A stretch of 64,000 nt of DNA from Aurantiochytrium sp. KH105 (Eukaryota > Sar > Bigyra > Thraustochytrida > Thraustochytriidae). The position numbers and the translations under genes were made by a program. Below the pieces are notes generated by a model. It was not told the DNA's origin. It was given only the letters and a program-made list of their open reading frames with translations, and did no database searches. Below are positions 23,939-54,853 of this stretch, one piece after another; within the stretch, counting starts at the first letter, position 1; each line of letters begins with the position of its first letter. The stretch spans positions 1 to 64,000 of the forward strand of contig BGKB01000244.1 of assembly GCA_003116975.1 (NCBI GenBank). Direction: 5' to 3'.

Positions 23939-24817
23939 AATGAAATTTCCTTCGGTCTTTCGGTTGTAGGCCTACGGAGTGATTGACGATGACGATGGTG
24001 GATTGAAAAGGATACTACTAGGCCTACCTTGCGTGTTTGTTGCCAGCGATTTCGTTCGGTCTCACTGACCCAGCCTGCCGCCGGGTCGGGAAACTATTTC
24101 GCCGAAAGTCCCGTTCGGTTAGGCCGAACAGAATTTATCCTGTCGCCGATGCTGCGTCCCGAGTCGAGGTCCAGGAAAGAGCCTGCACTCGAGCAAAGCC
24201 TCGCGTAGATCACGGTATACTCTTATCTTCTTTTTTTGGATGGCCTTGGATCTTCGACGTCCAATTTCGCGCACTGATGTTGTACGGCGTCATCCCCCGG
24301 GAATCATCAATCTCCTGGCACTGGCACGCAAGAACCTTTGCTGCTTTAGTAGACAACAACATTCGAGGCTGTACTACACGGACTTTGAGGCAGAAAATAT
24401 CGCCTCAGCCTTCTTTGAAGACGTGTGTCTCGGGGGCGTTCGTGAGACTGCGGCTGCAGGCACAGCGAATACCTTACCTTTCGTTCAGACTCCTTTGACG
24501 CGCAAGCCTGCTGCAGGTCCTCTTTGCCTTCCTCGTTTCCGCTGCTGCTCCGACGTGCTGCTCGCCAAATTTTTTTTTAAAAAAATCGCAACTCACAAGT
24601 CAGGTCGCGGGATCTTTCTCTGAACAAAACCTTTGTGTCACTCGTCATCTGCTTCCCTGCGCGCGCGTGCGTGTTGTGGTGAGGGCCAGCCGGCAGTCCG
24701 CTCAACACGCGCCCCGCCGCCTGCTTTGCCGGTCGACTTGCTTGGTTGCGTAGGCTTGGAAACGTCCCCGGTCAGACCGGGCATCGCCCTCCTCAAACTC
24801 ACAGCGAGTGCAGCGCC
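23939..24817. other. Intergenic region upstream of the lipase gene
   Basis: An AGGCCTAC palindromic motif occurs twice (about 23968 and 24020). A 127-codon frame (24240-24623) has mixed composition and no domain, so I do not call it. A CT/CG-rich stretch leads into the start of the next gene. Confidence 0.4.
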
Positions 24818-27280
24818 ATGTCCTCACCACCCCCGCCGCCACCACCACATGTAACGCCGCCAACGCCGCCGCCACCGCCGCCACCCCCTCCTCGTACATC
24901 GTCTCTGCAATCACAGCCACCGCCACCGCCACCGCCACCTCGAAGTAGTTCTTTGCCGCAGCCGCCGCAGCCGCCGCCGAGGACACGCAAACTCAAGGCC
25001 TTCACCGAGGCTTCGTCGCGGCAGATTGGTATCGGCGATGTCGAATGCGTCGAACAGGACCAGCCTCAGGAACCACCGCCCTTGGACGCCAGCATCGCTG
25101 ACGCGCAGCCTTCCGTGCCTCCCGTGCCGCCCATCGAGACCACCGCGTCGTCGTCATCGTCATCGTCCTCCTCCTCTAGGTGCTCACAAACTTATCTTCC
25201 CGAGGGGACGACGCGCAAGCCAGTCCTCATCGTCCCTGGCTTCATGTCTAGCGCGCTCCGCGTAGAGAAATCATCCATTGTTCCGCGCTGGCAAGGAAAA
25301 CGAATATGGATGTCGCTCGGGCGCCTCGGGTTCACCGGCAAAGTTCTCGGTACCTCGCACGTCTTCGAGACTAACGACGACGAGACCGAGCAGGTGAGCA
25401 TGCGCAACGACTGGCTTCTACACCTCACCTTGCAAACTGATTTGCTCTCCGAACGTGAGGGCATCGAAGTACGCCCAATACCAGGTCTCAGCGGCGTTGA
25501 TTTTCTCGAACCGGGTCTTTTTCTCAGCGCCCAGACTTACGTCTTTGGGCCCGTCATCAAGGCGCTCGTGAGTCGTGGGGGCTACACGTGTGAAAAAGAC
25601 CTTGACGCTGTTCCGTACGATTGGCGGCTTCCTCCGACTATTCTCGAGGAGCGCGACGCATATTTTTCCAAGACGCTTGATCGCATCGAGACCATGGTCT
25701 GCGACAATGACGGCGCTCGCATTGTTCTTCTCTGTCACTCCATGGGTTGTCAGGTTGGCGAGTACCTCTTGCGCTTTGCGCTTGACAAGCGCGGCCAAGC
25801 CTGGATTGATGCTCATGTTGACACTTATTTACCAATTGGCGCTCCCCATCTTGGCGCGGCGAGCTCCCTTGCCAGCATCATCCGTGGTTCCAACATGGGT
25901 CTCCCCACCTCCTTTCTCTCTCCTCATGCGGCGCTCATCATGGGGCGCTCGCTCGGATCTACTCCTCTTCTTCTTCCCGTGGGCTCGAATGGCCGCCTCG
26001 AGACGGAGGTGGCATTCTCCACTCGTGCCTTTTGCCCAATTGTCAAGCACACCGGCATGCTACGCATCAAGCTTTTGCAGCTCGACTTGCGCCAGCTTGC
26101 AACCTTTTATCGAAACCTTGGCCGTATGCGTCTTCGCATTAAGCTGGCCTCGACAAAGCTTGCCACGGCATGGTATCAGGCGGATCCTCAGTTGCTGGTG
26201 GAGCCCTCGGATGGCGAAAATGCCTATGTCATGTTCGAGATGGAAGCGCCCGTGGACCTGGGCCAGGGGGATGACAGACTTACACTTGAGATTCAAGAGC
26301 AGGTTCTTGCGCCGGATGTTGCTGCTCGTCGTCTCTACACCAGTGGACGTCGCGCTGCACGAGGGGTCGCTGAGAAAACAGGTCTTGCCAAGGTCGGGGC
26401 CCGTCTCTATGACAAAACCATAGGCGCAGTCAAGACTGTGGATCCGGGTCACGTCATCTGCAAGGCGGACTTTATGCTCGGTCACATTCTCACACCGCAA
26501 TATGTCTCAGGTACGACAGTGCTCATGACCTTTCCCCTCGCGCCAGCAACCTCGTCGAGCTCGCGACTCGGATGCACGGCGCAAGTGACCATGGAGATCG
26601 CGTGGTTTTCGCCTCAATTCATTCACTCGCAAAATGCCGCACAATTGCCAACGTGCCCGGCGCCTGTGACTTCTTCCCCCGCGTCTCGCTCGCATCTTAA
26701 CCCCGAGAGCTCGACATATTTCTGCTACACTCCCATCGACATGCTCAGAATAGAGGGACTGCACGACACAGTTCGCCTCTGGGAGTCTCATTTTTTTCAA
26801 CGCGATCCGTATATTGCCACTTCAGCGCCTCCCGTAGACAACGTCTATGCTATCTATGGCATCAACGTCAATACGATGACCTCTTGTATCTTTAGACGTC
26901 AGGCCAAGCAAGTCCGCTCTTCAAAGCTTGCCAATGACTTTCAGGTCGATACGTCCGCCACATTGGACCCCGAGTTCGCCAAAACCCACGGCCTTAAGCT
27001 GTCCAAGGGCGTCATTTACGAAACGAGCGCCACGCCTCAGCCTGACGGCAAGCGCCGTGCTGGCGACGGAGTCGTACCCTACCAAAGTCTTGCGCACGTC
27101 TCGTCTTGGGCAGCCACTGGCAGCTGCAAGGTTCGTACCAAGGAGATACCAGGTGCAGAGCATCGCGCCATCCTCAACAACCCGGATCTTCACGCGGCTC
27201 TCCTGGACTTTCTCGTCACGCTTCCACCAGAGCCACTGCCAGACGCCATTCCCTGCGTAGAAGCAGTGCCTTTGTCATGA
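24818..27280 (+). CDS. LCAT/PDAT-type acyltransferase or phospholipase
   Basis: Intronless frame of 820 residues from the ATG at 24818 (context gcgccATGt); an in-frame ATG at 24746 would add 24 residues. Residues 1-75 are an extreme poly-Pro tract, and a Ser run follows. The alpha/beta hydrolase begins at about 145 (KPVLIVPGFMSSAL, the oxyanion/lid region of the family). YDWR is at 267-270, the nucleophile motif HSMG has Ser308, PIGAPHLG follows at about 342, the GDGVVP motif holds the likely catalytic Asp750, and GAEH gives His782. These are hallmarks of lecithin:cholesterol acyltransferase, phospholipid:diacylglycerol acyltransferase and related phospholipases A. An insert of about 270 residues (about 410-680) separates Ser from Asp/His and may be a beta-sandwich domain. 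No signal peptide precedes the Pro tract, unlike secreted LCAT, so a cytosolic or membrane-peripheral enzyme is likely. Whether it transfers or hydrolyses acyl chains cannot be read from sequence. Confidence 0.9.
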   Translation: MSSPPPPPPPHVTPPTPPPPPPPPPRTSSLQSQPPPPPPPPRSSSLPQPPQPPPRTRKLKAFTEASSRQIGIGDVECVEQDQPQEPPPLDASIADAQPSVPPVPPIETTASSSSSSSSSSRCSQTYLPEGTTRKPVLIVPGFMSSALRVEKSSIVPRWQGKRIWMSLGRLGFTGKVLGTSHVFETNDDETEQVSMRNDWLLHLTLQTDLLSEREGIEVRPIPGLSGVDFLEPGLFLSAQTYVFGPVIKALVSRGGYTCEKDLDAVPYDWRLPPTILEERDAYFSKTLDRIETMVCDNDGARIVLLCHSMGCQVGEYLLRFALDKRGQAWIDAHVDTYLPIGAPHLGAASSLASIIRGSNMGLPTSFLSPHAALIMGRSLGSTPLLLPVGSNGRLETEVAFSTRAFCPIVKHTGMLRIKLLQLDLRQLATFYRNLGRMRLRIKLASTKLATAWYQADPQLLVEPSDGENAYVMFEMEAPVDLGQGDDRLTLEIQEQVLAPDVAARRLYTSGRRAARGVAEKTGLAKVGARLYDKTIGAVKTVDPGHVICKADFMLGHILTPQYVSGTTVLMTFPLAPATSSSSRLGCTAQVTMEIAWFSPQFIHSQNAAQLPTCPAPVTSSPASRSHLNPESSTYFCYTPIDMLRIEGLHDTVRLWESHFFQRDPYIATSAPPVDNVYAIYGINVNTMTSCIFRRQAKQVRSSKLANDFQVDTSATLDPEFAKTHGLKLSKGVIYETSATPQPDGKRRAGDGVVPYQSLAHVSSWAATGSCKVRTKEIPGAEHRAILNNPDLHAALLDFLVTLPPEPLPDAIPCVEAVPLS

Positions 27281-27418: not shown

Positions 27419-30400
27419 TCAGCATATGTGGCCAACTACAGGCCAGCGAAGTACGCTCGGATCGCAAGGCAATCCGATTGCAAATACTTCGCTTGCGTGG
27501 CAATCCATGACACGAACGAGCACACGCGACCAACTCTCAAGTGATTCTCGAAAACCAAAAGGGTCGAACGTCTGACCGCTATCTTCGCCAAACTTGACAA
27601 ACATCCATGGACCAAGCGTGCGCTTCCCTGCAATGTAGGGTCCTTCCATACGCCGACTTCGCGGATTCCAGCGTAGGCCTTCAATAAAAAAGCCCGGAAT
27701 TTCCACATCAGCCCAATCACTGTGCTCTCCGGGGCTCCCCAAACGAACAACGGCACGCAAACTCGACAAAGGCTGGCCTTGATCTCTGCTGGCTCGACAC
27801 ATGCGTCGCCAGAGTCTCATTTGCGCAATATCTGTTCCCCCATCTGCTGCCTCGCCAAGGATGATCACCTTGGCCCCATCTTCAACATCTCTGTTGGCGT
27901 GCTTCAAAGGTGTCGTCATGTTGTAATCAACAGATTGGTCTGGAATCCTTGGCTCTTCCGCTGCTACCTTGTTAGGCATAAGCCCATGATCGTGCGAATC
28001 CATGGCCGCCAGCATCGGAGATTCGTCCGTGAGAGTTCTGGAAACTTGTGCCCGCAGCCCATTTGAGAGGAGCGTAAGATATCGTGAATCTCTTGTGGCA
28101 TCCGCGCCACACGTCTCAAACCAGTCAAATCGGTCGTCATCGTCTGCAGCGGACCCAGACGAGAAATGGTATTCGCGACAGTCCAGATTCACACCTGCAA
28201 CCTGAATTTGATACGCCTTCGCCCAAGGCGTTGCCAGCGTCAAATGTCGATACTGGCCATGTGCCATCAGAGGCACAGCCATCTCCCAAGACTGAAAGGC
28301 ACATTCCAGCAAAAGATCTCCTGCGTGATGCTCCTGAGTAAAGACACCTGAAACACCTAGCATAAGCCGCTGCGCTTCAGCCTGTGTACCCTGACCATCA
28401 AGACCATCCTTGATTTCTAAAAGCATTGGCGCTGGAACCTCATCCTCGATTGAATCGTCATCATTCGCACAATCTTTGAAGCTTTCTTCCAGTGCTTCGA
28501 GCCTGTGAAACAAGGCATCTCGTGCAGCCTCGGGCGAGCTTCCTTGCAAAGAGGAGATCACCTCGCCAGTGAACAGACTCGCAAGAATTGTCTGACGCCA
28601 TAGGTGCTTGTAAGGCAGACACTTTTCTCGCCTTGCGTTCCATGCCTGTTCTCGCCTTGCGTCCCACATTTGCACAGCACTCTTGAAGCGCGCACCAAGA
28701 TTGACCCGATCATGACTGTCTTCGTTCAAGTCAAATACGCACGCGCTGTCGAGAATTGCAGCAGGCACGTCACGGACGGCGTCTTGAGCCAGCAAAATTA
28801 CACGAATTTGCTGCACAGCAGTGAACCCTTCGTCTCCATCCTCGCTGTCTTCGTCCGACTCAGATGCAGACGCAGACTTGTCATCGCGATCTAGCGTTTC
28901 CTTCTTTTGATCGTTCCGCAACGTTTTCAACCAGCTGCGCTGCGTTCTCACACGCTGTAAAACCCATTTTGCTTCGTCATGAATCATACATTGCGGGCTG
29001 CCCAAGACAACCCAGACGCAGGAAGCTCGCCACTGGAATCGACTCTGGGCAAGATCCTCCACGGATGTAGCAGCCACAACTTCCACGCCTTCTTCGTACA
29101 TTGCCGTTTCGTTGATGAGCGCGCGCACTCCCTCGAGCCCCATATGCCCATCTCGGGCCATCACAATAGGTGTCGTTGCCGGCAAGCCATCAATCGACCG
29201 TCGCAGCGTGCCGGGCGTTTTGGTCGCGCAGAGCCCTGCAAAGGCAGGTGGCGCCATAAATGAAGACGATGACGACTGGCTCGGACCGAGATGCAGATTG
29301 CGCAGGCTCAGTTTACTCTTGCTTCTCCCCAATGCCCACAGCATCCTGCGCGGAGATGATTTTTGCGTCGCCGCATTCATCGAGGCCCGACGTTCGACTG
29401 CGTCTCGGCTTCGTGATGCAATAAGCTCGGCCAATGGACCATGGGCATTGGCAACAAACGCCTGTGCTGCGCGCATCAGCTGCGACGGACACGAATTTGC
29501 GACAACGGCAAATCGCGCCAATGCATCCCAAGCGTCATCCACGTCCGCGTCGGCGCCAAGCTTCACAGCCAATGCGTGCACCGGGTTCGAGGACAGCTTG
29601 AGCTGCAAAAGATCGATAGCCGGTACCGCCGAAGCCAAAGGGACAACCATCTCTGTTACGTCTTCAAGATAAGCCGACCCATCCCCAAAGATGCTGCCCA
29701 TGAGGCGTGTCCAGTCAATTTTTGACATGCGAACTTGCGTTCCGTAGTCCGGCTGGATTGTCAAGTACGCTGCAAGGCTCGTGTCAGCGCCACTTACAGA
29801 AACAGAACTATGCCTTCGTACATGCGTGGACGCACGTTGTGCCGCAGCGCAAAGATCGCGACGTGCATTGACGCGATGAAAGTCATCAAGGCGAAAAGTT
29901 GGTCGTCCCATCGATCCATTCGAGTCGCGAATACTGCGTGACGACCCTTGTCGTCGCGTCTGCTGCCCGGGTCTCTTTCGCGGGTGCACGTGCTGAGGGC
30001 CCGCACGGGATGCTGAACTTGCGCCGCCACCGCCGCTGCCGCTGCTGCTACTGGTGCTGCGCCTGCCCTTGCGTCGGTCCTGCGATCCATCAAACAAAAG
30101 CATGATCATTGCCCGCACAAAAATGCGAGAGTCATGCTTTTCCACGCGCACCTTTTCTGCACACGCGAGTTCCAGGGCACCTACGAGCTGTGCTGCAAGC
30201 ATTCCTAACGTGTTTACTGTGGTTGGAATGGCCTGGACGAGCTTTTGCTCGAGCTGCGACATTGCGAAGTGAAGACGCGCCCACGGAATCGTCATGGACC
30301 GCTCTGCCCATAACTCTTGCGCAACATCGCTAACGGCGGCAGTAAACGAGGCATGCCCGATACGTGCCGCGAGCACAACACTCTGCGATCGTTGAAACAA

Positions 30401-33400
30401 TCGCAGGCGGTGAAAAAGACGTGCTGCAAAAGCTGCAAGCGGCCACACGGCCCGCACCATCCTCGCCATCTTGCCCATGCGTTCAAACTTCCACGTGGTA
30501 AAGCTCTGCAACACTTGAAGATAGTCTTTTCCACTGTGCACAACATCTGCAAAGACTTGAGCGTTTCCAAGCAAGAGTTCCGTCGCTTCGCTGCTCATAT
30601 CCCGCGCGTCGCTCCTCGCAAAGCTTGCGCGAGCTTCTCCCTTTTCGGCGCCGTCTTGCCGTCGCGCACAGAGATTTGACATCAAGAGCTCGTGCAGTTC
30701 TAATTTGCGTGCAAGGGTAGAGAGGTGCACAGTGGCAAACGTGTGCCATCCCGAGAGCGTCACCATCTGCGAAGGCGCCTTGAGCAATGCTGCCTCTGCA
30801 GCTCCAAGCGTCAGCGCGTCGAGTGATGTCGCAATGCCAAAGTCAAAGACGGCCAAACTTGTGCCAAAGCAGCTCACTTCTTCGCCAATCTCGTCATGCT
30901 CGACCACAACGACGATCGCAAAAGACTTGCTGTCGCCCCCATCCGCCAAGGTCCCACCACCCGTCAGAAATGCACGAACATGCGAAAGGATTGCTGGCGA
31001 GATTGACAGTCCACTGCCCGACGCCACGGTGATGACGACGGTATCTGCTTGCCCCTTTGCCGCCTGCAAAAACGCACTTGAAACTTGAGTGTCCGTTGCG
31101 CACGCCGCAAGCACCAAGAGATTGTGCTGCTTGCACGAGGTATACGCGCGGAGCCAGCGCATGCCCAAACCGTCTGGATCCACCATGCATGGCAAACGCA
31201 CAGACCACGCGAGCCGAGATGTAGGTGTCACGCCACGCGAATCCTCCAACACATTGGCGAGAAGCCGCGCCTGGGAAATGAGCGGTCTGTGCAGCGGCAG
31301 CATCGCTTGGAGCCACGCCATGCACGCATCCACGCTGATGTCTGTTTCCAGCACGTCCCCAACAGGGAAAAACAGGCGCAAATCCGCCGCTCCAAAGTCT
31401 ACCGGGATGCCGGCCATCAGTCCGGGAAGCGACACAACCATCGCAACCGCGTCTTCCTCGTTCATATTCTCATCTTCTTCATTGTCCTCGCCGTCGTCGA
31501 CGCTCCCTGTCGCGGACGCTGCCGCAGTAGTCGCCGACCCAGACCAGTCCACGAGTTTCACACCGGTGCTCAGACTGGGGCGCAAGCCACGGTCCAAGAG
31601 CACCTCCATCCAGGCCCCTAGGCATGCGCCACGAAGTGTCGGTGGAACTTTCCCGAGATACATTTCGCACGCAGTAACAAGAATGGCGTCAGCGGCAAGT
31701 GTTCCATCAGCGGTGTCGTCCTCGTCTTTGCGCCGAAGCCGCGCAAGATCTCGCTGCCAAGCTCGCTGAATGTCGTCGCCAAGGACTTCCTGTAGCTGCC
31801 GTGCGCGTTCGCTTTTAACCCCGATCGTATCGATACGGTCCCGCGCTTGCTCTTGCGTTGCTGCTGCGTCTCGCCGTCGCTTGGATGCCTCCCGAGATCG
31901 ATGCTGTGCATCCGCAACAACTCGCGCGAGTTCTTTGCGCTCCGTGTCGAGCACGGCCAACTCTGTCAGACTGCGCTGCAGCGACTCCTGTAGCGGACGA
32001 ACAGAATGAAGAACTTGGCGGTACCTCAAGACCGCCAACATCCAGCCTAAAAACACCTCTAGCGTTGGGCGGCAATCCACGAATTTTCGACGCCCGCCGC
32101 CATTCATTGATAGGCTGCCATCCGCCGATACGTCAAGATTAAAGGCTTCGCGCACCGTTGATGTGGCAAGCAATCGCTGCACTTCTGCAATCACGTCATC
32201 GCCAATCGCATCCTTCTGCAAAGCTAAAAGCCGTCCGCAGAGTCCTGGATCGTCCAACAGCTCGGGGGACACGGCTTTCTCCCAATAGTACTGCTTGGGC
32301 GCAAATTGCTCAGCGACTTCGTCGCGTCGCTGCTGCAAGTACTCTGCCGATTCCTGTCGCGCAGCACTTTCGCGTTCCACGCGCTCTTGCTCCAAGGCAA
32401 GCGCTCTTTCGCGCGCATCCAAGGCTTCGCCACTCCCCAAGAGATACAAGGCACGGAGAACGGCCCGCGTTGCGCTATTGGGATTGCGCAAGTTGCGCAC
32501 CTCTACAATGCGAGCTCGTGAGAGCTTGCCCAGACTCTCTGTGGTACTCGAGAGCAAGGGTCCAATCTCGTCAATTGCAGACGAAATGACGCTGCGCAGC
32601 CTGCGCACCTCGGCATCCGTAAAGGTCCATGTTGCCGTTTTTGCCTCGAGATTTCCGGTCGCAAGAGTCAGCTCCTCCGCAAGACTCCTGGATTCTGCGC
32701 TCGCTGCTTCAAGCACAGCCTCCGCAGCGTCCAGTTTGGGTTGCAGCATCGCCAGCTCACCGCGCATGCTCACCGCAAACAGAGAAGCTACGTCCACCAT
32801 CAAAAGGGCTTGCTCGGTCTCGGCAAACTTCTTCTCGAGCTCAGCACGACTCTGCGCGAGACGCCGGCTTGCCGCCCACACAAGACGCAGCAAGTCATTC
32901 ACGTCACCGAGCAGACCATCTTCCTCTCCACGTGTCGCAAGTGCATGCACTTCAAAGAGAACCTGGCAAAACTCAAAGAGGCTGTCTTCCGTCCCACTTG
33001 CACCCTCATTCTCCCCAGCAGCTCGCTTGAACAGCGAAATGAGCTCTGTGCCGCGTTTCTCGTCTCCCAGGGCATTTGCGGCACTGCGTTTGGCTACTTG
33101 GACCGCCAAATCCGCCAGATCCTCCAGCGTTGGTCGCTCCGTCTTGACAAGATGTGCACCTCGGAGCCCGCGCGGGATCCGCTTTGCCGATTCCACACAA
33201 AAGACAACTTTCAACCGCTGGCGAATGTGGCGAACAAAGTCGTCGTGCACAAGTGCGCGTTGTGTGCCCTGCGACATCTTTCCCGGATCTCTGTGCTGCG
33301 ACGCAACAATTTGCTGCCGTGCCGCGACGCTTGCATCAGCACCCTGGGCTGCCTCCTCAGCCCCAAGCCCAAGCTGCGACCAATCAATTAAATGATCCAC

Positions 33401-36400
33401 CGAGCCGCGACGTGCGATTTGAACCAGATCATCCAGAAAAGGCGAATTGTCGCAGCCCGCCTGGCTCCCTGCTTCTACATACAATAGCACCTTGTCCTCG
33501 CCACTTCCCGTCGCGACAAGAACCTTGCGCAAAGTCTCATGCCACGAAACTTCGTCCGTGGCCACGCTGGCCTCGACCACCTTGTATCCAAGACGTCTTG
33601 CTGCCTCTTGAACCACGAGTTCTCGGAGATGCGGGCTTCCCAGGGGCTCCAAAAGAACCACGCAAGTTGCTCCATCCGTCGAGCTTGGCGCGGCAACTGC
33701 CATCTCCATGCTGCAGACCTGACGCGCAAGAAATATTGAAGGGAAATTGCACGCCCGCGTTTCCCAAAACTGCTTCAGCTCCTTCATCTCAGCAGTGGTT
33801 GCATCTCTTGCTAGCACAATCACCTCCTGGCCCTCAACCGCAATGTTGTTCTTCTCCACCTCACTGCTATCATCCTCCGCCAACGAGTCAGAAGACGAGC
33901 CAACTTCATAGGCACCATCTTTCTCCTCTTGGTCCGCTGGGTGGGCCAGCGAATCGTTGCCTCGACAAGTGCTCGAGACGTGCGCGCATGCATCGCACGC
34001 TTCCTCGTCGGATGCGCTCGTCGCCTCGATTGCCTCCTCGTGGTCGTCGTCTACACGAGCGTGGTCGCACAAGGCCAGACGAAGGCCTTTGACCTTTGCA
34101 TCGGGCACGTGTCGGACGACGCGGCTGATCATTTCCCGAATACAGAGCTCACGTTCTTCCGCAGAAAGTTTGTGCGCGTGGTGCGCAAGAGCTGCGCCAT
34201 ACGTAGTAATTGCGAGCTTAATCACGCTGTCCACCTGAGCTGGCAAGCCTGGGGCAAAACGGAGTAGAAATTTGCAAGCTTCGACGATCGTCGCCCCAGC
34301 ATATTGCTGGGGCACGGCTTTTCCAAGATCGTCGAGAACACTTGCCCAAGGCATGCAGAAATCAGCTGCTCCAACCCTTTGATTTCTGCAGACAATGACG
34401 GAAGCAAAGGCGGCCGTCACGGCTTCCGCCTCAAGTTCTCCCAATTGTACCACTGTGGCAAAACGCGCACAAAGGCGAGACGATGCCGGCATGCGCTGCG
34501 CCGTTGCGAGAAAGCTACATCCATGAAACCTGATCTTGCCCACTTCAGCGGTATCGATAACTGTCCCCGTTTCGAGGGCCTGGCGGAGCTGCGCTTTCGC
34601 GGGCTCAGCCGAGGGATCGTCGAGAGCCAAATCGTCCACAAAGACGAGTCCGACAGAGGGCATGACACCACCCATCGATCCAAAGTCCCCATGCTCCTGC
34701 ACTGGCGGGGCAAAGTGGCCCTCGCAAAACCGATCAAGCTTGGTCAAAATACCAATCGGTTTGTCACCTTGTGCAAGACCCATGCGATGCACAACGACTT
34801 GACGAGACGGTGAATCCTCTTCAACTTGAGTTCGCAAAAGGGCCAGAGCTGCCTCGGATACGAGTCGCTTCCCGCTATGAAAGGGGCCCGTGCAAAGAAC
34901 ATCTGCGCGATAGCGAAGCTGCGCCGCAACAAACCAGGCCGCGCGTCGCTGCTGTGCCGTGAGGATACGAACCTTGTCCCGAGACACGAGATCAAGCGCC
35001 GCCATGCACGTGTAATCCTTCCAAGGCACCCATGCGCCGGCATCAATGTCATAGGCATGAAGAAAAAGCGACGGACCCTCGTCGGGACCCGCACGCGGAG
35101 GCAGCTTTACGGGAATTTTCATGCCCACGCGCGTGCTACGTCGCGCATCTTTGCCGTACGCAAGAGCAGCTTCGACCCGCGCGTCAGATCGAACAGGTGA
35201 TGACTTGCTGCCCCCCCAGACTCGTGCAAGGGCAAGTTCCACAAGTCTTGGGTCGAGGCCCGGCAGTTGCCCCACCGTCCAGAGAATGCCCAAGGTGACA
35301 GCAGCGTCTACAGGCTCGCGCGCCGGCACATCCTGACGCACACGGCCTCGCTCGTCAAGCATACGTTTCGAGAAGCCTACCAGCAGTGCATTCACTGTGC
35401 CAGCGAGTCGGGTGAGCAAGAGCGCTGGAAAGGCCTTGCCTTGGGGCCGCGAAAGCGCCCACAAGACTGGCAGCGCTACAACACACATTTCCTCAATCCG
35501 CTTTTGAAAGGGGATAAAGAAGTGAGGAAGCGCGAGGCGCGCGATCTCGGGAGCAGTTGCCGCATTTTCCGAATCTGGCGAAGCTAACCATGCATGAAGC
35601 ACCTCGCGAAACGAAACAGTTGCGTCGTCAGTGCGGACCAGGGCACATTTTGCAAGCATTCCCGGGGACATTTCCGCCAGAGACACAGTCTCAAAGACAA
35701 AACAGGCGCGCCGAGGAAGCAAGATACGTTCCTCACCTTCACGATTCGTTGCGCAGATTGCATGATCTTTGGGCTCCACGAGACATTCCACAAGGCTCGC
35801 CGCCGAGTTCTTGTCTAAATCGCCGTCCAGTACCACCCACGACAAGCCTTGCACAGCTTTGAAGATGCTGGCAGCCACAACTTCGTCATCTTGAGATTCA
35901 AGATGGACTCCATCGACAAGAGCGCTGGCCTTTTTCTTCTCCTTCTTCTTGGACTCCGCTTTGTCGGTTTCGTTCGCAGGCACGGCCAGTACGTCCTTTC
36001 CGGAGATGGTATCGAGGTCTGCTACATCGGTGGGGAGCGAAAAACTTCGGGTATCCTCAAAGTCAACGAACTTCTGGAACGCTAGTGACGCTGAAGAGCT
36101 GGCCTCGAGAACACGCATAATCTCGCGTTGAAGCCAGCGCGGTCGTGCATCAGCAAAGATCCGAGCAGCACGAAGGTTAACATTTCGCAGCAAATTTAGC
36201 GCTGCGACAATGATGCGCAAGACCAGAGACTTGCCGCTGCCAGGAGGGCCAAACAAAATGACACTCGAGCGCTCCAGAAAGCTGTCCGCGTCCAAAAAAC
36301 CCGACGCGTGCAAAACATCGAAACATACAGGCACGAGCCCGCTGCCTCTTGGTTCGATTCCTAGTTGAGTCATTGCGTGCACCAACAACGTGTGCAAGAC

Positions 36401-39400
36401 CCTGTCGCGCCTTGCTCGTGCAACGGGAGCATCCACAAGACGCCGAGAGCTGCCGCTCGAACGCCCAAGGGGGCTGCTGCCTAGTCCCAGGGCCTGGTTC
36501 GTGCGTCGACGTCTAATTTTAGACCGGCGAAGCGAGGCCGCTTCGTCAGGACCAGCTGCGATTTGTGCAGCTTCTTTCATTGACGTGTGCTGGCCACCGA
36601 AAATGCTAATAATGACATTGATTGCGGTCTCAAAGTCTTCCGCGCGACCCTCCATGATACGCACGAGAGCGTTCGCCAAGAGCGACCGTACGTGTGCCAA
36701 GGAGGCGCCCAACTTTACGTCTACCTGGAGCAGGCTATCACGTCCGCCCGTATGCTCTTGCTTGGCATTTAACGAGGAGTCCGTGCCCACATGCGATTGC
36801 CATGCCTCACGGACGACGCGCGAGATCACCGCAGCATTCCACTGGGCGCCATTGTCAATGAGCTTGAGCGCACCGCTTACTTCTCGACCTAGCTGGCTGC
36901 AGTCCTGTGCGCTCAGGCCGTTAAATTTACACAATATTTGGCTTGCGCCAACAATGGCACAGTCTGCGGATTCGACTCGGCATACGCGTATCCGAAAGTC
37001 CAACGAGGTCGGCAACGGTCCGCCTCGAGTAGTCGCAAACATGGCAGGACGGCTTTCCCGAGCTGACGAGTGGGCCAGTCTTGGGGACAGGTCGCGTAGC
37101 CATAATTGTAACGTTTCGTGGTGAGCTCGCGAAAGAAGATCGATTCCCTCCACAAAACCCCATGCCCCCGTCGCCGCGAGGCCCTTCAAAATGCGCTCAA
37201 AGGCAGAGCCATGGCCCACGGTGAGCGTAGACATCGCCAAGCATCGTGTTCCCGTCAGGTCAGCGAGCTCTCGAATGGTTGCAGACTTGCCAACGGTTGC
37301 GCTCCCACAAGCGCAGCCGATTGCCCCGGCCGTGGCTGCAAGCGCAAGTGCACGGAGACATCGAAGAGTGGATGGAGCAATCACCAAACGTGTTCCCTCA
37401 AGTGCGTCCCAGGCAAGTCCATGCGTAAAGCGAGCCCCCAGCGTCTCAACTCGCAAGTGCAACGTCTTTGCGCCTTGGTCGCCAGCTTTCAGGTAGGATC
37501 GAAACGCAAGCTCCCATAGCAAAGGTTTTCGACTTGCGGCACTCACACGATCTCGCATGTCCTGCAGTGTGGTGATACAGGCCTGAATGCGTGTCACGGC
37601 GCAAACAGGCAGCTTTGCATTCTTTTCGCTCCCAAGAAGCCCACAGCAAAATTGGATCCCGCTTTGCAGACGCAAGAACGGGTCTTCCCCGTTCACTTGC
37701 GCGCGCGGCGACTTGAGCGCTGTGGTGGAACTCTTGAGAAAGGAGCCCGAATTGACGACCTGCAGCGCTGTGTCGCCGAGTAAGTTGTCGACATCTCCGA
37801 AGGCTTGCTCCACGAGACGCGTGCAAGCCACTCTAAGGGCTGCAAGGATTGCACCCTGAAAAGGGCACTCTCGAATGGCACGCGACAGCGGGTCCCACGT
37901 GCTCAGGTCCGCCATGGCTTCGACAAGAGTTGCAACGCATTGCAAAAATTGTGTCTTGCCACGCACGTCGAGCTCTGCAATCCACTCATCCACCGCGATC
38001 TTGCGGGCCGCAACGGGCGCGCCATCGACTCGCTGTCGGAGTTCAAATGCCACGGGCAGAGGGGGGTTGTCGAGTCGAAACGCCGACTTTGACAAATTCT
38101 GACGCGAAGTATAGCCTCGTACTACCATTTGATGAACCTCGAAAACGTCCTTGACCGCGCTCTTTCCAAGATGCGCATGCCGTCGACGGAACTGCGCAAG
38201 AATAGTCTCCGCAGCACCTTCAGGTTGGCCGTAAGGCAGCGCTTCCCACGCAAACACGAGATTTTGCACATTATCAAAGAGCAGGCCGACACGCTCACCC
38301 ACCTCTGCGCAGTCCCGCTGCGCCGCGCTCAAAAACGCCAAGAGCTGCGCGTCAGCAATAAAGTAGAATCGCGGACACTTTCTTCGGATCTCCTCGAGTT
38401 TGCCGCCAAGAGACTCATTGATGGCGTCCATGCACTCATTAAGATCGGCAAAGAGTCGCAGGGCAGGGACGCGGAATTCCTCGCCCTCTGGATCGTCTTG
38501 TGCAAGTCTCTGCAGTGCCGCAACCGTATCGCTCCTGCGCCCATGCAAGATATCCATGAGTAGGTGCAGTGAAACGCGACGATTACTCACGGTGGCCGTG
38601 AACTGGGACCAGAGCCGGTTTGCAAAGTGGAATGACTTAATTTCCTTCTCGCTCAATTTGATCGGCATTGGGCTTGCCGCGGAGTCCGCAAAGAGCGCTT
38701 CAATGGGCTCCCATTTCGTCTGGAACATCTTTACCGACTGTAGCCACTCCCGCAAATGTGCAATGTCCTTTGCCCAGTCCTCGGCGCGAGCCGTCATGTT
38801 TCCCGATTCTGTAAACGTCGAGGCTTGAATGCGCTGCATCTCAATCATCTGATTTTCGATCAGCAGCAATATAGAGTCCATGTCGAGAGATTGCGGGGTT
38901 GTGGCGGTATTGGTACCAGACGCGCTGTCGGCAGCAACAGCCTGTGCTGCGCCCGAGTTTCCAGGACCCGTTGCGTCGAGACCGCCTACCTCCCCTGCGG
39001 GCGTTGCCGCATGCACCTGGACGACGCCCTCGCCATCGGCATGCAAGGTATTGTTCTTGGCATCAGAATCTCCGGCGATCTTGACCTCGCGCTGATGCTC
39101 ACCAGAGAGGATGAGGATGTGCGCAGCAGTGATGCCTACTTTGGCGGTGCGCAGACGGTGGGCGTGCAAGTCTGCTGCCATTTTATCCATCTTGAGCTCG
39201 ATTTCGTACTCGTGTTCAGCCAACGCGCAAATCTCTGCAATCTCGTCATAATAGCGTGCAATGTGCAGTTCCTCCAGGGCATGCAAGCTCACCTTGTCAT
39301 AGCGAATGGCTTCATCATTTCGAGATGGTCCTGCTTTGCGACGTGATACGCTGATGCTTTCCCGCGTACTTTGTGCGAGCCTAGTGGCAGATACATTCAT

Positions 39401-42400
39401 TTCTACGACTTGTTCTTGGCCGTCCTTATCATTGCCATCGTCCTCGCCACTATTGTTGCCATCGTCCTCGCCATCATTTAGCCCGAGAAGGCCGCCGAGG
39501 AAGTTACCATCGAGGGGCACCATGATTGCTATAATTTGGCGCCAGTGACGCGCTCGCAAAGCGTTGCTCGTCAAGAGACCGAGCAACGGGAGTGTGTCCT
39601 TGAAGTCGAGCAGCAGTTGCCGAACCGAGAGACAAATGGTGAGGGGCACATCGTCGTCAGCTCCATTCAACTCGGCCAAGACCTCGTCGAGGCCCGGAAC
39701 CCAACCTCCCTCGCCAGTAATAAGCTCGAGGGCGTCGTCAGCGCTCACATTTGAAAAGGTGCTACGTCGCCACGTCTGAACAGTCTCCCGCGCATCTGCC
39801 ACAATGGACCAAAGTTGATTAAAAAGGCCCACGCGCTTGCGCATGGCCACCACATCTGCAAGCGCGCGCTCAGCGTCGAGCGTGTGCTCGCTCTTGACAA
39901 CAGGAATTCCATACACCTCCTTTTCCGGACGGTCGAAGACGCGAATTCGCGAGGCAAGAAGCTCCATCATGCTACAGGCTGTCGAAACGGCCTCGTTGAG
40001 ATATTCCGTCTCGGCGGCGATTTGCATAGCCTCCTCGACGTTGTCACGCGCTGTTAGCTGGACGACCTGGGCGCGAAGCAATTCAAGGCGTTCCTTGAAG
40101 CGCTCCTTCTCCGCGTTGAGGCCCACCAGGAAACTGCTTTCGTGCGAGCGAGCCTTTTCCACGCACGCATGGCACGTGGTGCGAGCAAGATCTGGCTTTG
40201 CGAGCAGTGTGGCCTGAAAGGCAATGTCTTCGGAGCTCTGCATGTACTGTAAACGCTCCAGTGCGTCGAGCCTGCGTCGGGCGGGCGCAAGGCACCGCTG
40301 CGCAATGTCGTCCAGAATTCTCTCGAGATCTACCTCAAACTTCCACAGCGTGCTAAGGTCATCTGCCGTGGCGATCCCAAGCTGGACATCCGCGAGCAGC
40401 TGATCATATTCATGTTCCGCTTTGCGCAGGTGGCGCGTGGCCTGCGCGTGAATTTCGTCGAGTATGATTGTGGCCATTTGGTCGCATCGAGCCTTGAGGG
40501 TTTGCTTGGCGTCGCGAGACTCGACGTGAAAGAGAGGAATGCGCAGGTCCGTGGGTAACTCGCAATCAATCTGCGTCGACACGCGGCGTAAACGAAGAAC
40601 CTCCTTTTCACAGCTTTCGAGCATGGCTGACTCGTCTTCGGGCTCGTCCGAGATCTCATAGTTTGCTTCAAGATCAGCGTGAGTTCTTGGAAAGGGGTCA
40701 GTTTCCCGCGAAAAGGTGAATTGATGCCCTGCCTTTAGGCCAGAGCTCACTGCAGCATCCTCTCCCTCTTGCCCCGGCGCAGGAGTTTGCGCCGCCAATT
40801 GTTCGTTCCGTTCTGCGATATCAAGACCGAGGGTCGATGATGTTGAGCCAGATGAAAACGAGGATGATGCCGTAGCAGACATGTCGTGCTCGCCCCAGCC
40901 GAGGAAGGAGTCTTCCGATACGCGATCAGGAAGACCACCTGCACCTCGTGATACAGTCGGCATGGTGCTTTGACGCGCACCAAGAGCACCGCCCTCTAAA
41001 AGTAAATAGTTTTCAGTGCTGTTAGAACCCGTGGGAGACAGGTTTTTCCGGCGTGCGAGTGGCTGTGTGAACCACTCGCGATATATGTTCAAGTCAAGGT
41101 GAGTAACGTCTGTAAACCCAGCGTGAATTCCCGCGAGGATCTTTGTCTCGAGGCCGTGCATGACCTCGAGGACCTCCTCGGCCGCGGACACTGCCTCCGA
41201 GACGATTGCATCGAGCCTACAGCTTGCGGACCATATGCAATTGGCGACAAAATGTAGAGGGTCTTGGGCGTCATCTTGCAAGGCGCGGTGAAAGACGTAT
41301 AGCACGGGCGAAGCGTGCACAGATCGTTTCTTACGAACCGTCATGAGACTGCGGAGCACGAGGGGAAGAAGGGCAGCTCTTGCATTGGAGAATGAAATGG
41401 AGGTCTCCTCGGTCGAGACGTTCCGAAGCGCCGCAAGGACGGGCATGAGATCGTCAGTGGGATCTTCGATGCTCGTGATTGCTTTAGCAAGATGCTCTAT
41501 CGTGGCAAGAACACGCTGTCGAACGTCACTGAGCGGCGGCGAGAACTCTGGGCCCTCGCGAAAGAGCAGCTGAACGGTGAAAAGGCCTTCGCGCTGCGTA
41601 TGGGCCGCAAGACGCTTTTCGAGCTCGACATCCATTCTCCGTCCGTGGGACGGACCGTGCAAGGATGCCGAGGCGAGGAAGCCGCTGCTCGCCTGAAATA
41701 AGGCCACGTAACGCTCGAGCGAAAGCTGGACGTACTCGTACAAGTGTTGGCGAGCTGCGAGTCGTGTGCGGTACACGAGGCGCTCTGTGACACTTCCGTG
41801 GTGTTCTTCAAAGCTCCGCGAGTAGAAATTATACGTGCCGCCATCCGGCCCGGGTTGACCATGGACCTTGCTGAGGCAGATCATGACGATCCCATGCATC
41901 CACTTGCTCGTCAAGAGGTGCGAGACGGTTTGCAAGTGCATACTCTGCTTTTTGGAAAACACTGATACGCGAAGTGGTGGCGCGAGGTCCTTTGTGCCGA
42001 GAAAAAGATGAATATCAGTGCCTCCATGACCAAGAACACTTGGTAAGTCGGCGCCGAGGTGTTGCGCCAAGAACATGTATTCACGAAGGTGCTGGAAACA
42101 AAAGATGGCAGATTCGCGGATCGCCTGCCGCGTCGTGAAGAAAGAGACCATTGGGTTTTTCGCGCTTGTTCGCGCCTGCCGTACAACGCGAGCTTCTTGC
42201 TGCACTTTGTAAAAGGCGCGTAGTCCCCACTGCTCAATGGCTACCATGTGCATGCCCAGCATACGAGGTCGAGCCCACAGCGGGGTGCCCTGCCAGCGCC
42301 GAAGCATTTTCTTTCGTCTGCGCTGCAGCTGTCGGGCTGGCTTGCTGCTGAGGAACAAGTTGTATGCGCACGCTGCCTCGTGCATGTGTTGTTCGGTGAC

Positions 42401-44095
42401 CTGCGTGAGCTCTTGGCCGAGCATGTGGTGTACTTGCTCGACAAGGTGACGCAAAGCAATGCGTGTATTGAGAAGATGGCTGTCGATCCCACGTGGCAAA
42501 TGCGTCATCTCCGAGACAGCATTGACCGGCATGGCCTCGTCGGACTTTAAGGTGTTCTGTTGCGTAGTACTCGTGAGAGGACTTGCTGGCAAGAGCTTGG
42601 TGAAAATCGTGTCGACGAGTTCCTGCACGCGGTCCTGAAAGGGACGTGCACGGTCTTCTCGGGACCTGGGGCCAGGAAGCGCGGAGCAAGGCGCGTCAAT
42701 ATCGAGTAATCTCTCCATTTCTTGCAGCATGCTTGCCAGTGTGACAGAGTTCCGCGAGGCGTCTCGCCCGAGCTGACTTTGATTGCCACCTTCTTCCTGT
42801 AGGTGCATCATTGTGTCGCCCGAGTGCGAGCTTCCGGAGCCGAGGCTACGGATTGGAAAATTCAACGCGCGGGCGGCAATGCGTTCCCGAAAACCCCACA
42901 CGCGTGAGGGCGTATCGTCTGCGGGTGTTTCGACCTCGTTGGAAAGGATATATGCATCGCTTTGACGAGGATGCGTATCGAGGAAGTTCTGGTACTTCCA
43001 GGTCATGCCATGGACGAAGCGTAAGGCGTCGGCGTGCTGGACACGTGCCTGGAAACAGGACGGAGGCTCATTGCGAAATCGTAATATGGTTCGAGGACAA
43101 AGCTTTTGCGCAAAGTGTCCGTCGTCGTGCAAGCTCAAGCGAATAGTGTAGAGTTTCGCCACGGGATCGTACGCCAAGACTTGGCATGGAACCTGAATGG
43201 CAACTCTACGTATTGAGCTAAATGTCTGCAGAAATGCAGGTGTTTCTCCTTGATCGTTGCGGCCACTGAGGTTCGCATGCGTGTCCGCGACCCACTCGGC
43301 GTCTTGAAGCAAGCACGGAAACTTGCGTGCCTCGCCTTGCGCGCACGTGTGACCGCATACGCCGGGGCCCAGATCGAAGGATGTCAGATAAAGGACGCGG
43401 GTGGTGCGTTCGTCTTGGTTTGGACCCAAGGGAAGGGCAAAGGTGAGCCTCTGAGGCGCGCATGCGTGAACATCGTGGCTCGACGAAGCGCACGCGGGGC
43501 GTGGCCGCTTCTTATGCCGTTGATGCGAGCTGGGAAAGGTTCTCAGGTCCTTGACTTCGGTTTCCAAAAGCCGAAAGGCAGGGCTGTATGCGTTGGCAAT
43601 GCGTGACGTCATGGAGTCGTGTGGTGATGCGATGGAAAAGACCCGGTCGGTGTCTCTTTCGCGAAGCCTTCGACCCGGGCTCGGCCGCGGTGATGCAGGA
43701 GTCTTTCTATTGAGTGCACTGTGCTGTTGACGATGATGAGCTTCGTCGTCCTCCTCGCGCTTGAAACTCTTTCGTTGTTGTTGTTGTTGATGATGTTGTT
43801 GTTGCTGCTGCTGCTGCTGCTGCTGTTGCTGGTGATGACGAGAAGCCAAGCGCCTTGACGGGCTCCCTGGCGGGCGTCTTGGGACGGGTGCCTTTGGTGT
43901 CTTGTCGCGAAGATTCTTCATTCGAGAATGCCAGTCGGTCTTCTCCACGAAGCCGCCAGTATATTCTTTCCATCCAGAGGTGAGTTGAAAGCGATCCTTG
44001 TCGCTGTGGATGCCGCTGCTGCTTTTGCGCTCTTTTTCGGTTTCGTTGTTGCTGTATTTGTCCTGGTCCTCCGCGCGCTCTTCTCTTTGCTGCTT

Positions 44096-44160
<65 letters not shown>

Positions 44161-44544
44161 CCTGTTGCGCAACATCATCATCATCTTCATTATCATCATC
44201 GTTGTCGTCGTCGTCGTCGTCGTTGTCGTCATTGCCGACCTCGTCGTCGCCGTCATTGTTATTTTTTTGGGCATCGTGATCACTGGGGTTTCTTGCCAAG
44301 CCTATACTTTTTGCACCAGAAAAGACCAGCTCGCGCGTAACGAGGCGCTTTGTGAGGTCTTCGTTGCGAGCGTCGACGCGCGAAGCCGCATCTTCAGTTG
44401 CCTGAATAGCCTTTAAGATGGCCTCGAGAGCTCTGGTGTTTGGTCGTTCACGTTAGTCCCAATCCGAGCGTCAGATTTTTCTCTGGGTACTCACCTGTCC
44501 CAGTCAACATTGCTGCCTCGCTCCGCGACGTCATCGAGGTCCAT
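27419..44544 (-). CDS. Divergent dynein heavy chain, about 5687 residues, two exons
   Basis: Exon 2 (44432-27419) is an open frame of about 17 kb. I infer exon 1 (44544-44495, starting MDLDDVAERG) from a GTGAGT donor, an ACTAAC branch site and a CAG acceptor bounding a 62-nt intron; no ATG begins the long frame itself. Residue order: Asp-rich stretch, poly-Gln at about 107-130 and about 218-234, tail, linker about 1480-2050 (LPLLGLL..ALRARHW, CPRFYFIADAQLL), AAA1 Walker A GSATVGKS (Lys2399), AAA2 GPPGSGKS (Lys2751) with VVLDGDLD, AAA3 GPFHSGKR (Lys3205) with VFVDDL, a P-loop-less AAA4 (about 3613), stalk coiled coils about 3877-4220 flanking the microtubule-binding domain, AAA5 (LPCMVDPDGLGMRWL), AAA6 and the C-terminal domain (FIEGLRWNP). 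Typical heavy chains have 4000-4700 residues; low-complexity inserts explain part of the excess. It is presumably axonemal or cytoplasmic; the subclass is not assignable by eye. Confidence 0.95.
43783..43832 (-). repeat. Poly-Gln (CAG/CAA) microsatellite in the dynein N-terminus
   Basis: A trinucleotide run, read as GCT/GTT repeats on the + strand, encodes a Gln tract with flanking His/Gln residues at about residues 218-234 of the dynein. In-frame length polymorphism is likely. Confidence 0.9.
44098..44162 (-). repeat. Poly-Gln (CAA) microsatellite in the dynein N-terminus
   Basis: A long GTT run on the + strand encodes more than 20 Gln in the dynein N-terminus. It is followed upstream (44165-44270) by GAT/GAC-type repeats encoding Asp. 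The antisense frame gives poly-Leu and is not a gene. Confidence 0.9.
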
Positions 44545-52390: not shown

Positions 52391-54853
52391 TCACACCTCG
52401 ACACTTGCGAGAAAGTCTTGGAGCATGCTATAGATGCCATTTCCCGAGAGTGCCGAGTAAACGCGGGAACTCGCGCCTGTAAGCTTGGCGAGATCGCTCA
52501 AGTGATCACTGTCATCAGGGTCCACCGTTGCCGCATATACGACTGCCGCGGTATCGTCTCGAAGGGCAGCCGCCTTGGAACGAGCTGCGCTCGTGTCGCT
52601 CGATGTAGCATCCTTGTGCGTGAGCAAGATTACGGCGACGGGCCGAAGAGGGTCCTTGCGATCATTGAGAATGTGTTTACGTGCTCGTCTGAAACCCGGA
52701 GCAAGACACTGCGTTCCTGCCCGTGTGGTGTCACGGCCAGCGCGAATAAGCCTGCGAATCCCTCGCTTCGTATCCTTCCACTTCACACTGCCGCCTAGTG
52801 TCTTGTCCCAGGCACAAGACGTTGACACGAGCGCCATACTAAAGATGGCACCATTGTACTCGAGAGCTTTGCGCACCTTGTTCGCAAAGTTGAAGAGCTG
52901 CTGTTGACAGCTCTCGAGACCAAAGGTCGCAACGCATGCATCTTCTTGCGCTGTAGTGGTCTCCGCGTGGTCAAACATAATGAGAACATCCACGGGCAGC
53001 AAAGAACGAGTGTCCTCCCCAGTGTCCGCACCAGCTTCGGTCGGACGCCGCGTTGGAACAAAGTCAGTCGGGGGTGGCGTTGGGTACGCGTTTGTATAGC
53101 ACAGCATGCTTCCGATGCTGTCCAAAGCAGCAGCCACATCCCACGAGGATACCGTAAAGATATTGTAGCTGCCGGGGGACACAACGCTACGCTCAGTGTA
53201 TGTCTCGCACTCCACGGTCCCGCCCGCGTCATAGGAACCAGAGCACCATTCGGAGTCGCTATCAATGAGACAGGCCGCGTTGGTATCGGGGTTCACGCAG
53301 CATTGACTACCTTCGAGCGCACCCGTAAAATAGTCTTCCATTGGGGCGCGATTATCCACGTTGGGAACGCCGACGAGCGCAATGCGCACGCCATCGGCAC
53401 GGAGACGCGAGGCTGCCATCGGGACAGTCTCCGTCACGTACTGGCAACGATTGAGCCGCCACAAAGCCTCCGAAGAGCGCCACATGTAAGGCCCGGTGCC
53501 AAAGTTCTGAAAGGGTGTCCCGTCCGTAAGGACGAGCACCAGCTTATCCTGCCCTTGGCGATAATTGGCGCGCAAGTAGCCCTGAAGCATTTCAAAGGCC
53601 TCGGCAAGGTTAGTGCAGCATTCCAAGGTGATGTCGGCAAGGTTATTGTCAACTGCTGTTGCAAACTTGCCCGAACCGCCAAACTCCTTTATGGGAACGC
53701 GAATAACCGTGTTGCCCTCGCTGCCAAAGGTCGCCACTCCAATGCGCGAGCCGGCGCCATAGCCGACCTGATCGCCCACGCCCATGATGATGGTCAACAT
53801 CTCATCCGAGAAGCGAGCCGGATCAATGGATTCCGAGGTATCGACAAGGATCATGACGTCGCGCTTGACGTCGAAACACCCCGCGCCAGGATCCGACCAG
53901 TCGAGACAGATCTTGTCGAGAGCCTTATCGACGAGGGGCTGCATGTCCCACGTTTCGACGCCAAAGGCGTGGTCGTCGACGGGCTCGGAGACGAGCGGAC
54001 TGTAGGAAAGCGTGCCACAAGAGGTCTGGGATGGGGTCACATCCTCGTTCGTGTAGCAGATCTCGTCGTTCGCGAGCTTGCCATTGAAGTAGTCAATGTT
54101 GACGTTCTTGTCGGGGTCATTGTGCGGAACGCCGATGAAAAAGACGCGGATTCCGAGGTTCTTGAGGTCGCGCATCTTCTTGGGCACCTTTTGCGTGGCG
54201 TACGAGACGCGCATCTCATCGCGCTGACCCTTTTTGTTCTGGGTCCATCCACTCAAGGAGAGTCCACGATCGTCGTAGAATTGTCTTGATCGCGAGTCGT
54301 CGGCCACACTGTACTCACCGAACTTGTAGTTGATGAACGGCTGACCGTCCGTCACGAAAAAGGCAATGTTTTCGTAGCCATCATTGAGACCGCGGGCCTT
54401 GAACATTTCCTTGGCGAGAATGGCTGCCTCGGCGTGCGTCGTGCAGCAGCGGAGCGGGGTCTGGTATCGCACGTAGGTGTTGATCGCCGTTTCGAATTCG
54501 TCGGGAGTGAATTCTGTAAAGGGAATGCGGGTCTCAATGTACTGGTTAAAGGTAATGACGCCGGCCTCGTACTTGACGCCCCCGGCCGTGTTGCGAAAGC
54601 CGCAGTATGTGTTAATGACAAAATCCATCATTTCCATGTCAAAGTGTGTTTGGTTGATGCTCAGACTGCCATCCAGGATAAAGAGAATGCGGCGGCTTTT
54701 GGGGTTGCATTCTTGCATCGCGGAACAATCAACGGCACTGACGCCGTGCGAGCAAAGAAACAAGGCGATGGCCATGTGAAGGATAGCCCATGCTATCACA
54801 TTGTAATGTCCGTGGGGCCGCATAGTTTGGGGCGCGGTCGACCTGCTTCTCAT
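52391..54853 (-). CDS. Secreted or extracellular protein with three vWA domains
   Basis: Single exon, 820 residues from the ATG at 54851-54853; an in-frame ATG at residue 11 is an alternative start. A hydrophobic segment (AWAILHMAIALFLCSHGVSA) acts as a signal peptide ending near residue 40. vWA1 starts at about 55 with MIDAS DGSLS (Asp61-Ser65), followed by FFVTDGQP. vWA2 starts at about 332 with DTSES, followed by LVLTDGTP. vWA3 starts at about 617 with DHAET, a degraded DxSxS, after a Pro/Thr-rich linker (about 590-605). Many Cys pairs suit extracellular folding. No transmembrane segment or GPI-type tail is seen at the C-terminus, so the protein is probably secreted. vWA domains bind proteins through a metal ion; adhesion or matrix assembly is the likely role. 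The three domains are only distantly alike, so duplication is old. Confidence 0.9.
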   Translation of the reverse strand: MRSRSTAPQTMRPHGHYNVIAWAILHMAIALFLCSHGVSAVDCSAMQECNPKSRRILFILDGSLSINQTHFDMEMMDFVINTYCGFRNTAGGVKYEAGVITFNQYIETRIPFTEFTPDEFETAINTYVRYQTPLRCCTTHAEAAILAKEMFKARGLNDGYENIAFFVTDGQPFINYKFGEYSVADDSRSRQFYDDRGLSLSGWTQNKKGQRDEMRVSYATQKVPKKMRDLKNLGIRVFFIGVPHNDPDKNVNIDYFNGKLANDEICYTNEDVTPSQTSCGTLSYSPLVSEPVDDHAFGVETWDMQPLVDKALDKICLDWSDPGAGCFDVKRDVMILVDTSESIDPARFSDEMLTIIMGVGDQVGYGAGSRIGVATFGSEGNTVIRVPIKEFGGSGKFATAVDNNLADITLECCTNLAEAFEMLQGYLRANYRQGQDKLVLVLTDGTPFQNFGTGPYMWRSSEALWRLNRCQYVTETVPMAASRLRADGVRIALVGVPNVDNRAPMEDYFTGALEGSQCCVNPDTNAACLIDSDSEWCSGSYDAGGTVECETYTERSVVSPGSYNIFTVSSWDVAAALDSIGSMLCYTNAYPTPPPTDFVPTRRPTEAGADTGEDTRSLLPVDVLIMFDHAETTTAQEDACVATFGLESCQQQLFNFANKVRKALEYNGAIFSMALVSTSCAWDKTLGGSVKWKDTKRGIRRLIRAGRDTTRAGTQCLAPGFRRARKHILNDRKDPLRPVAVILLTHKDATSSDTSAARSKAAALRDDTAAVVYAATVDPDDSDHLSDLAKLTGASSRVYSALSGNGIYSMLQDFLASVEV

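Follow-up and report, generated by a model that had tools for sequence, protein, structure and literature searches.

A putative dynein-derived heavy chain with an altered AAA1 active site, open on two haplotypes

Among the ring sites of dynein heavy chains (DHCs), AAA1 is described in passages of a 2016 review as the only one strictly required for motility and as having its full catalytic set in every dynein isoform (PMC4879348). According to the same passages, ATP binding at AAA1 frees the microtubule and bends the linker, the attacking water is handled by the Walker B Glu and the sensor I Asn, and the transition state is stabilized by the arginine finger and the Walker A Lys together with the magnesium that the Walker B Asp holds (PMC4879348). 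DNHD1 has been portrayed as an orphan dynein-like gene and 'ghost gene', possibly turning into a pseudogene (PMC8754002), its protein being given as 4753 residues long (PMC9916431). Its knockdown in zebrafish was reported to result in fewer and shorter cilia, with ciliary motion unimpaired (PMC9749982). As an orphan or 'ghost' chain (PMC8754002) that is dynein-like, large, and divergent, DNHD1 would be the best functional parallel of the chain presented here; its role lies in cilium formation, ciliary motion being spared on its loss (PMC9749982).

The chain is encoded in the window, i.e., the whole stretch of 64,000 nucleotides analysed, which sits on contig C244 of an assembly comprising 76.0 Mb in 367 contigs. 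It is probably a dynein-derived heavy chain whose AAA1 is off the canonical hydrolysis cycle and which is retained as a subunit that binds microtubules and has a structural or regulatory role. A more specific version, in which selection maintains a full-length DHC without motor ATPase to crosslink microtubules, either statically or under ATP gating, the catalytic Glu being a heterozygous polymorphism, is put forward tentatively as a serious possibility. A literature search, with most subscription journals outside its coverage, returned nothing on this protein.

Open frame, dynein modules, and relatives in the genome

The modules of the frame are given below with their window coordinates; residue n begins at window position 44452-3(n-1) on the minus strand. 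Values named 'own HMM' are E-values obtained with profiles built from nine other DHCs of the same genome, at a nominal database size of 1000.

27419..44452, minus strand: entire open frame from stop to stop, uninterrupted over 5677 codons, plus the stop
37553..39844, minus strand: linker, approximately residues 1537-2300, with DHC_N2 segments around 1537-1644 and 1857-2067; own HMM 1.2e-15
36533..37552, minus strand: AAA1 module with degraded active site, residues 2301-2640; AAA_6 9.4e-11, own HMM 3.2e-8
35063..36532, minus strand: AAA2 module, residues 2641-3130; own HMM 5.7e-5 (full sequence) and 0.0035 (top single stretch)
33833..35062, minus strand: AAA3 module, residues 3131-3540; AAA_7 3.9e-5, below cut-off
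32903..33832, minus strand: AAA4 module, residues 3541-3850; AAA_8 0.006, below cut-off
31703..32902, minus strand: stalk and microtubule-binding domain (MTBD), residues 3851-4250; own HMM 2.1e-7
27422..31702, minus strand: AAA5, AAA6, and C-terminal part, strongly diverged, residues 4251-5677

The first in-frame ATG of the frame is residue 178 (window 43921), and the start and any 5' intron are provisional. Near the N-terminus, long polyglutamine and acidic repeats were observed (about 43800-44160, minus strand), the lengths of which differ between alleles. The heavy-chain loci of the assembly come in pairs with near-equal scores, suggesting that both haplotypes were kept in one assembly. The partner allele of the dynein-like gene is located on contig C14 (G000:C14) and features a protein identity of 96.9% over 5655 aligned residues; the flanks of the gene also match between the window and C14, and both haplotypes are without stop or frameshift across about 5650 codons. 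An assembly artefact is unlikely, as the two haplotypes, compared at the level of the assembly, agree apart from ordinary variants.

Judged from profile comparisons, the frame is a very divergent DHC by descent, with linker, AAA1, AAA2, and stalk/MTBD being profile-supported, AAA3 to AAA5 more weakly, and AAA6 and the C-terminal domain barely. In Pfam, two overlapping queries matched DHC_N2 (6.6e-36 and 8.4e-10), the AAA_6 match covered just profile positions 10-89 of 327, and the AAA2 P-loop matched AAA_22 just under its cut-off (2.3e-5). The N-terminal 2933 residues retrieved 81 sequences from the PDB at E ≤ 0.01, with 8glv_Kg on top (7.8e-18). Profile searches of each AAA module and modelling of the ring had been proposed in the original prediction. 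In the former, our own HMMs for linker, AAA1, AAA2, and stalk/MTBD matched in the expected order, followed by weak values for AAA4 (0.007), AAA3 (0.81), and AAA5 (3.4, with one of 20 shuffles getting to 2.5), and those for AAA6 and the C-terminal domain gave no match in the window protein. The latter was run with AF2, the single-sequence models of which reached mean pLDDT values of 39.1 and 37.8, too poor for testing the fold.

When each module was scored in its expected segment only, the real score was reached by none of 500 shuffles of that segment for AAA3, AAA4, AAA5, and the MTBD, by 5 of 500 for AAA6L, and by 2 and 289 of 500 for the end and the middle of the C-terminal domain, respectively; the segment before AAA6L gave no score in this restricted test. 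Furthermore, the C-terminal 1139 residues found a single match in the PDB (E 1.7, non-dynein), and no Pfam match was obtained for the C-terminal domain. Because profile, PDB, and shuffle support is so thin, it is mainly their position that makes AAA6 and the C-terminal domain plausible; the second part of the C-terminal domain is described as missing in some dyneins (passage in PMC4047620). The earlier statement that linker, stalk, and C-terminal domain are all present could be upheld for the first two, and for the C-terminal domain only weakly. As a separate observation, the first MTBD helix is followed by a charged stretch (about 32294-32440, minus strand) that exceeds the consensus of the nine canonical chains by approximately 30 residues.

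When linker and preceding tail were used to search the genome, no further loci than C24 and C13 matched (27% identity; 1.7e-10 and 3.3e-10); C13 is of the DNAH6 type by PDB comparison. The window chain would be inner-arm-like at most, its linker appearing nearest to that of single-headed inner-arm dyneins. Like the latter (DNAH6/DNAH12 type; 8glv_Kg), it can be aligned in the linker, the AAA1 start, the AAA2 Walker B region, the stalk, and the MTBD, whereas it differs from them in its altered AAA1 active site, its longer frame of 5677 codons, and its barely recognisable AAA6 and C-terminal domain. Mean motor-core identity to nine canonical chains was 0.196, compared to 0.46 among the nine, and in a tree with these chains the stem branch of the window gene amounted to 3.39 substitutions per site (canonical terminal branches, 0.25-0.95). 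On this very long branch, its position had weak support (0.88 and 0.755), and no class was assigned from it.

Orthology to vertebrate DNHD1, which would make the window chain a member of an ancient orphan family instead of a lineage-specific one, is compatible with a retained non-motor chain and draws on both proteins being the same sort of object, large and divergent DHC-like. It appears rather doubtful, however, as no chain named DNHD1 occurred among the best 60 of 81 PDB matches or in further match lists (39 matches, and the best 60 of 151), and the closest linkers belong to ordinary inner-arm chains.

A midasin-like protein encoded on C66/C42, which we read as midasin (Rea1/Mdn1), scored 7.5e-20 and 2.6e-8 with the dynein AAA3 and AAA6 profiles, compared to 0.81 and no match for the window protein, so that AAA3 and AAA6 of the latter are further from the dynein profiles than midasin is, which counts against the favoured reading. 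Both carry several AAA modules within one giant chain. The window protein was nevertheless rejected as midasin, since it features linker and stalk matches that are absent from the midasin-like protein, and the two are distinct genes. Viral contigs searched for related loci gave two pattern matches and no relative.

The AAA1 active site

AAA1 of the window gene reads GSATVGKS ... GAWGFVEGIDLL ... TTRGGPLPTS; 17 of the 18 other DHC loci of the genome are canonical in AAA1 (GPAGTGKT ... C[FL]DEFN ... TMNP). All other DHC loci found, at least 18 in number, were examined with one allele each, and C33/C47 with both. The altered positions are as follows.

37283..37306, minus strand: AAA1 Walker A, GSATVGKS; conforms to the consensus GxxxxGK[ST] and is kept in both alleles
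37133..37156, minus strand: AAA1 Walker B region, FVEGIDLL; Glu in place of Asp and, in the window allele, Gly in place of the catalytic Glu
37145..37147, minus strand: codon 2436, at the catalytic Glu; window allele GGA (Gly), C14 allele GAA (Glu), a single transition
37004..37033, minus strand: AAA1 sensor I region, TTRGGPLPTS; Asn replaced by Arg on both haplotypes
36824..36844, minus strand: likely sensor II position, QWNAAVI versus HYDYGMR; Arg to Ile in a by-eye alignment, MAFFT placing a gap here
35645..35668, minus strand: AAA2 SPGMLAKC versus SPATVSR of nine canonical chains; Arg to Lys

The original prediction described a P-loop surviving only in form; its letters were read correctly, but the consensus is in fact satisfied. 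Similarly, the loss of the Asp-Glu pair holds for the Asp, replaced by Glu, whereas the Glu is lost only in the window allele (FVEG) and is present in C14 (FVEE). The catalytic Glu is therefore heterozygous, with the 'lost pair' being Glu-Gly on one haplotype and Glu-Glu on the other, and the ancestral state may be either. The sensor I without Asn was found exactly as claimed, at a position where 17 of the 18 other loci have TMNP. Compared with the complete AAA1 catalytic set, the gene retains Walker A, has EG (window) or EE (C14) at Walker B, and carries Arg at sensor I. Furthermore, by alignment, sensor II and the arginine finger of AAA1 appear to be lost, the latter being taken as the Arg in SPATVSR of AAA2.

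The first Walker A Gly and the Walker B Asp position are separated by 52 residues in the window gene and in all nine canonical chains checked, and because this spacing is fixed, an overlooked canonical Walker B elsewhere in AAA1 is unlikely. From the Walker B Asp position to sensor I, 41 residues were counted in the window gene versus 50-51 in canonical chains; the pre-sensor-I insert, described in section 13 of PMC4047620, is therefore about ten residues shorter.

A second DHC with an altered AAA1 was detected in the genome (G000:C33:240203-241366, L041, and G000:C47:104463-105626, L043), so that such changes are not confined to the window gene. Its AAA1 has GPAVSGKT as Walker A and LEEF as Walker B (Glu in place of Asp, yielding Glu-Glu) and lacks the sensor I Asn, with an allele dN/dS of 0.21 over 530 codons. 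It shares with the window gene the altered AAA1 and the missing Asn, and with the C14 allele the Glu-Glu Walker B, but is outer-arm-like by its AAA1 stretch (DNAH17, E 3.9e-72) and without special closeness. Since Glu-Glu also occurs there, the exchange of Asp for Glu may be tolerated.

This observation, together with the GxxxxGKS of both alleles and the FVEE of C14, speaks for an AAA1 that is unusual yet active, in which Glu instead of Asp would hold the magnesium and the Glu-Glu allele would hydrolyse slowly, giving a slow or gated motor. We regard such a motor as unlikely, because sensor I Asn is exchanged for Arg on both alleles, sensor II and the arginine finger are apparently lost, the pre-sensor-I insert is shortened, and the catalytic residue is Gly in one allele. 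With several catalytic residues lost together, the cycle should stop, which agrees with the favoured non-motor chain; the intact Walker A consensus and the catalytic Glu of the other allele make some hydrolysis possible, and this counts against it.

Selection between the alleles and the remaining ring sites

Between the window and C14 alleles, 268.5 synonymous and 188.5 nonsynonymous differences were counted (dN/dS 0.215), and both alleles are under purifying selection. The lowest values by module were found for stalk/MTBD (0.092), linker (0.103, residues 1851-2300), and AAA4 (0.115), followed by AAA6 (0.138), AAA2 (0.147), AAA3 (0.215), tail (0.228), and AAA5 (0.262), with the highest values in the C-terminal part (0.33) and AAA1 (0.334). 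A pseudogene is unlikely, as the frame is open on both haplotypes and dN/dS is not near 1; the concern that the gene might be a pseudogene in other isolates is thereby answered for the two haplotypes of this one genome.

In AAA1, 18 nonsynonymous and 18 synonymous differences were found in the window gene versus 1 and 84 in total in four canonical allele pairs (p 1e-10), corresponding to dN/dS values of 0.33 versus 0-0.011, with the canonical pairs biased towards conservation because they were picked as top AAA_6 scorers among the 18 other loci. All four canonical values were computed on aligned sequences, and the codon ranges compared were 340 in the window gene and 319 in the canonical pairs. 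Compared to all the rest of the same gene, constraint on AAA1 was not significantly lower (p 0.29), a point against the favoured reading; compared to linker, AAA2, AAA4, stalk, and AAA6 pooled, a p of 0.015 was obtained, the pool having been chosen after the fact.

Late decay of a former motor, a 'ghost gene' with fading constraint and no present role, would account for a dN/dS far above that of the canonical DHC regions, whose four pairs have 25 nonsynonymous and 350 synonymous differences against 188 and 268 in the window gene (p 9e-33), for the stem branch of 3.39 substitutions per site against 0.25-0.95, and for the heterozygous catalytic codon. Against it stand about 5650 codons free of stops and frameshifts on either haplotype and a dN/dS of 0.215 overall, falling to 0.09-0.15 in stalk/MTBD, linker, AAA2, AAA4, and AAA6. 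Moreover, allele-to-allele comparison tends to overstate dN/dS, slightly deleterious variants still segregating. Such decay is considered quite improbable.

The P-loops of the other ring sites read as the original prediction had claimed: AAA2 has a clean GPPGSGKS (36227..36250, minus strand; Walker A, intact), the Walker A Ser/Thr of AAA3 is replaced by Arg (GPFHSGKR), and the P-loop of AAA4 is gone. In addition, AAA3 keeps FVDDL but has lost the sensor-1 motif, and LEPLGSPHL stands where AAA4 would have its P-loop. Its suggestion that catalysis may have moved to another ring position, the protein still being a full motor, could not be sustained and is very improbable, because no other site acquired a full set: the clean P-loop of AAA2 and the FVDDL of AAA3 would favour it, but the AAA2 Walker B is Asp-Gly (LDG) and lacks the Glu, a state shared by the nine canonical chains that were read over their full length, and the AAA3 and AAA4 sites are damaged.

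A proposed non-motor role and the surroundings of the gene

The preferred reading, a structural or regulatory heavy chain as already suggested in the original prediction, fits the open haplotypes, the dN/dS of 0.215, and the constraint being strongest on stalk/MTBD and linker. Since Walker B and sensor I are altered, and sensor II and the arginine finger apparently so as well, AAA1 would bind ATP and turn it over slowly at best, and no ATP-paced stroke would therefore be expected; AAA2 may still carry a structural nucleotide. Stalk and MTBD would hold microtubules without release-and-step cycling, the linker would connect them to a partner bound by the tail, and tail and linker would keep the chain in place. 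The chain could then serve, most likely in the flagellum, as a static crosslinker or as a subunit for regulation or assembly, and an axonemal or zoospore role may be conjectured.

A DHC kept on both haplotypes without the catalytic set, its stalk/MTBD and linker being the most strongly selected parts, would make a non-motor role of dynein in the cilium testable, and the window chain would help to decide whether DNHD1 and similar orphans function as pseudo-motors or are genes in decay. If the proposed role is true, the chain would represent a protist counterpart of the orphan dyneins, in which the lever and the microtubule-binding arm are reusable without the engine.

Of ten neighbouring frames submitted to Pfam, four matched at E ≤ 0.01, namely a protein kinase (20406-23489, plus strand), a lecithin:cholesterol acyltransferase (24746-27280, plus strand), a von Willebrand factor A domain (52391-54853, minus strand), and WD40 (56016-57059, plus strand). 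The first 10 kb of the window (positions 1-10000) showed a GC skew between -0.21 and -0.28 and only one frame of at least 250 amino acids, with no tandem array at a score of 80. A tandem array was detected at 15106-15482, consisting of 3.1 copies of a 123-base unit with 96% matches.
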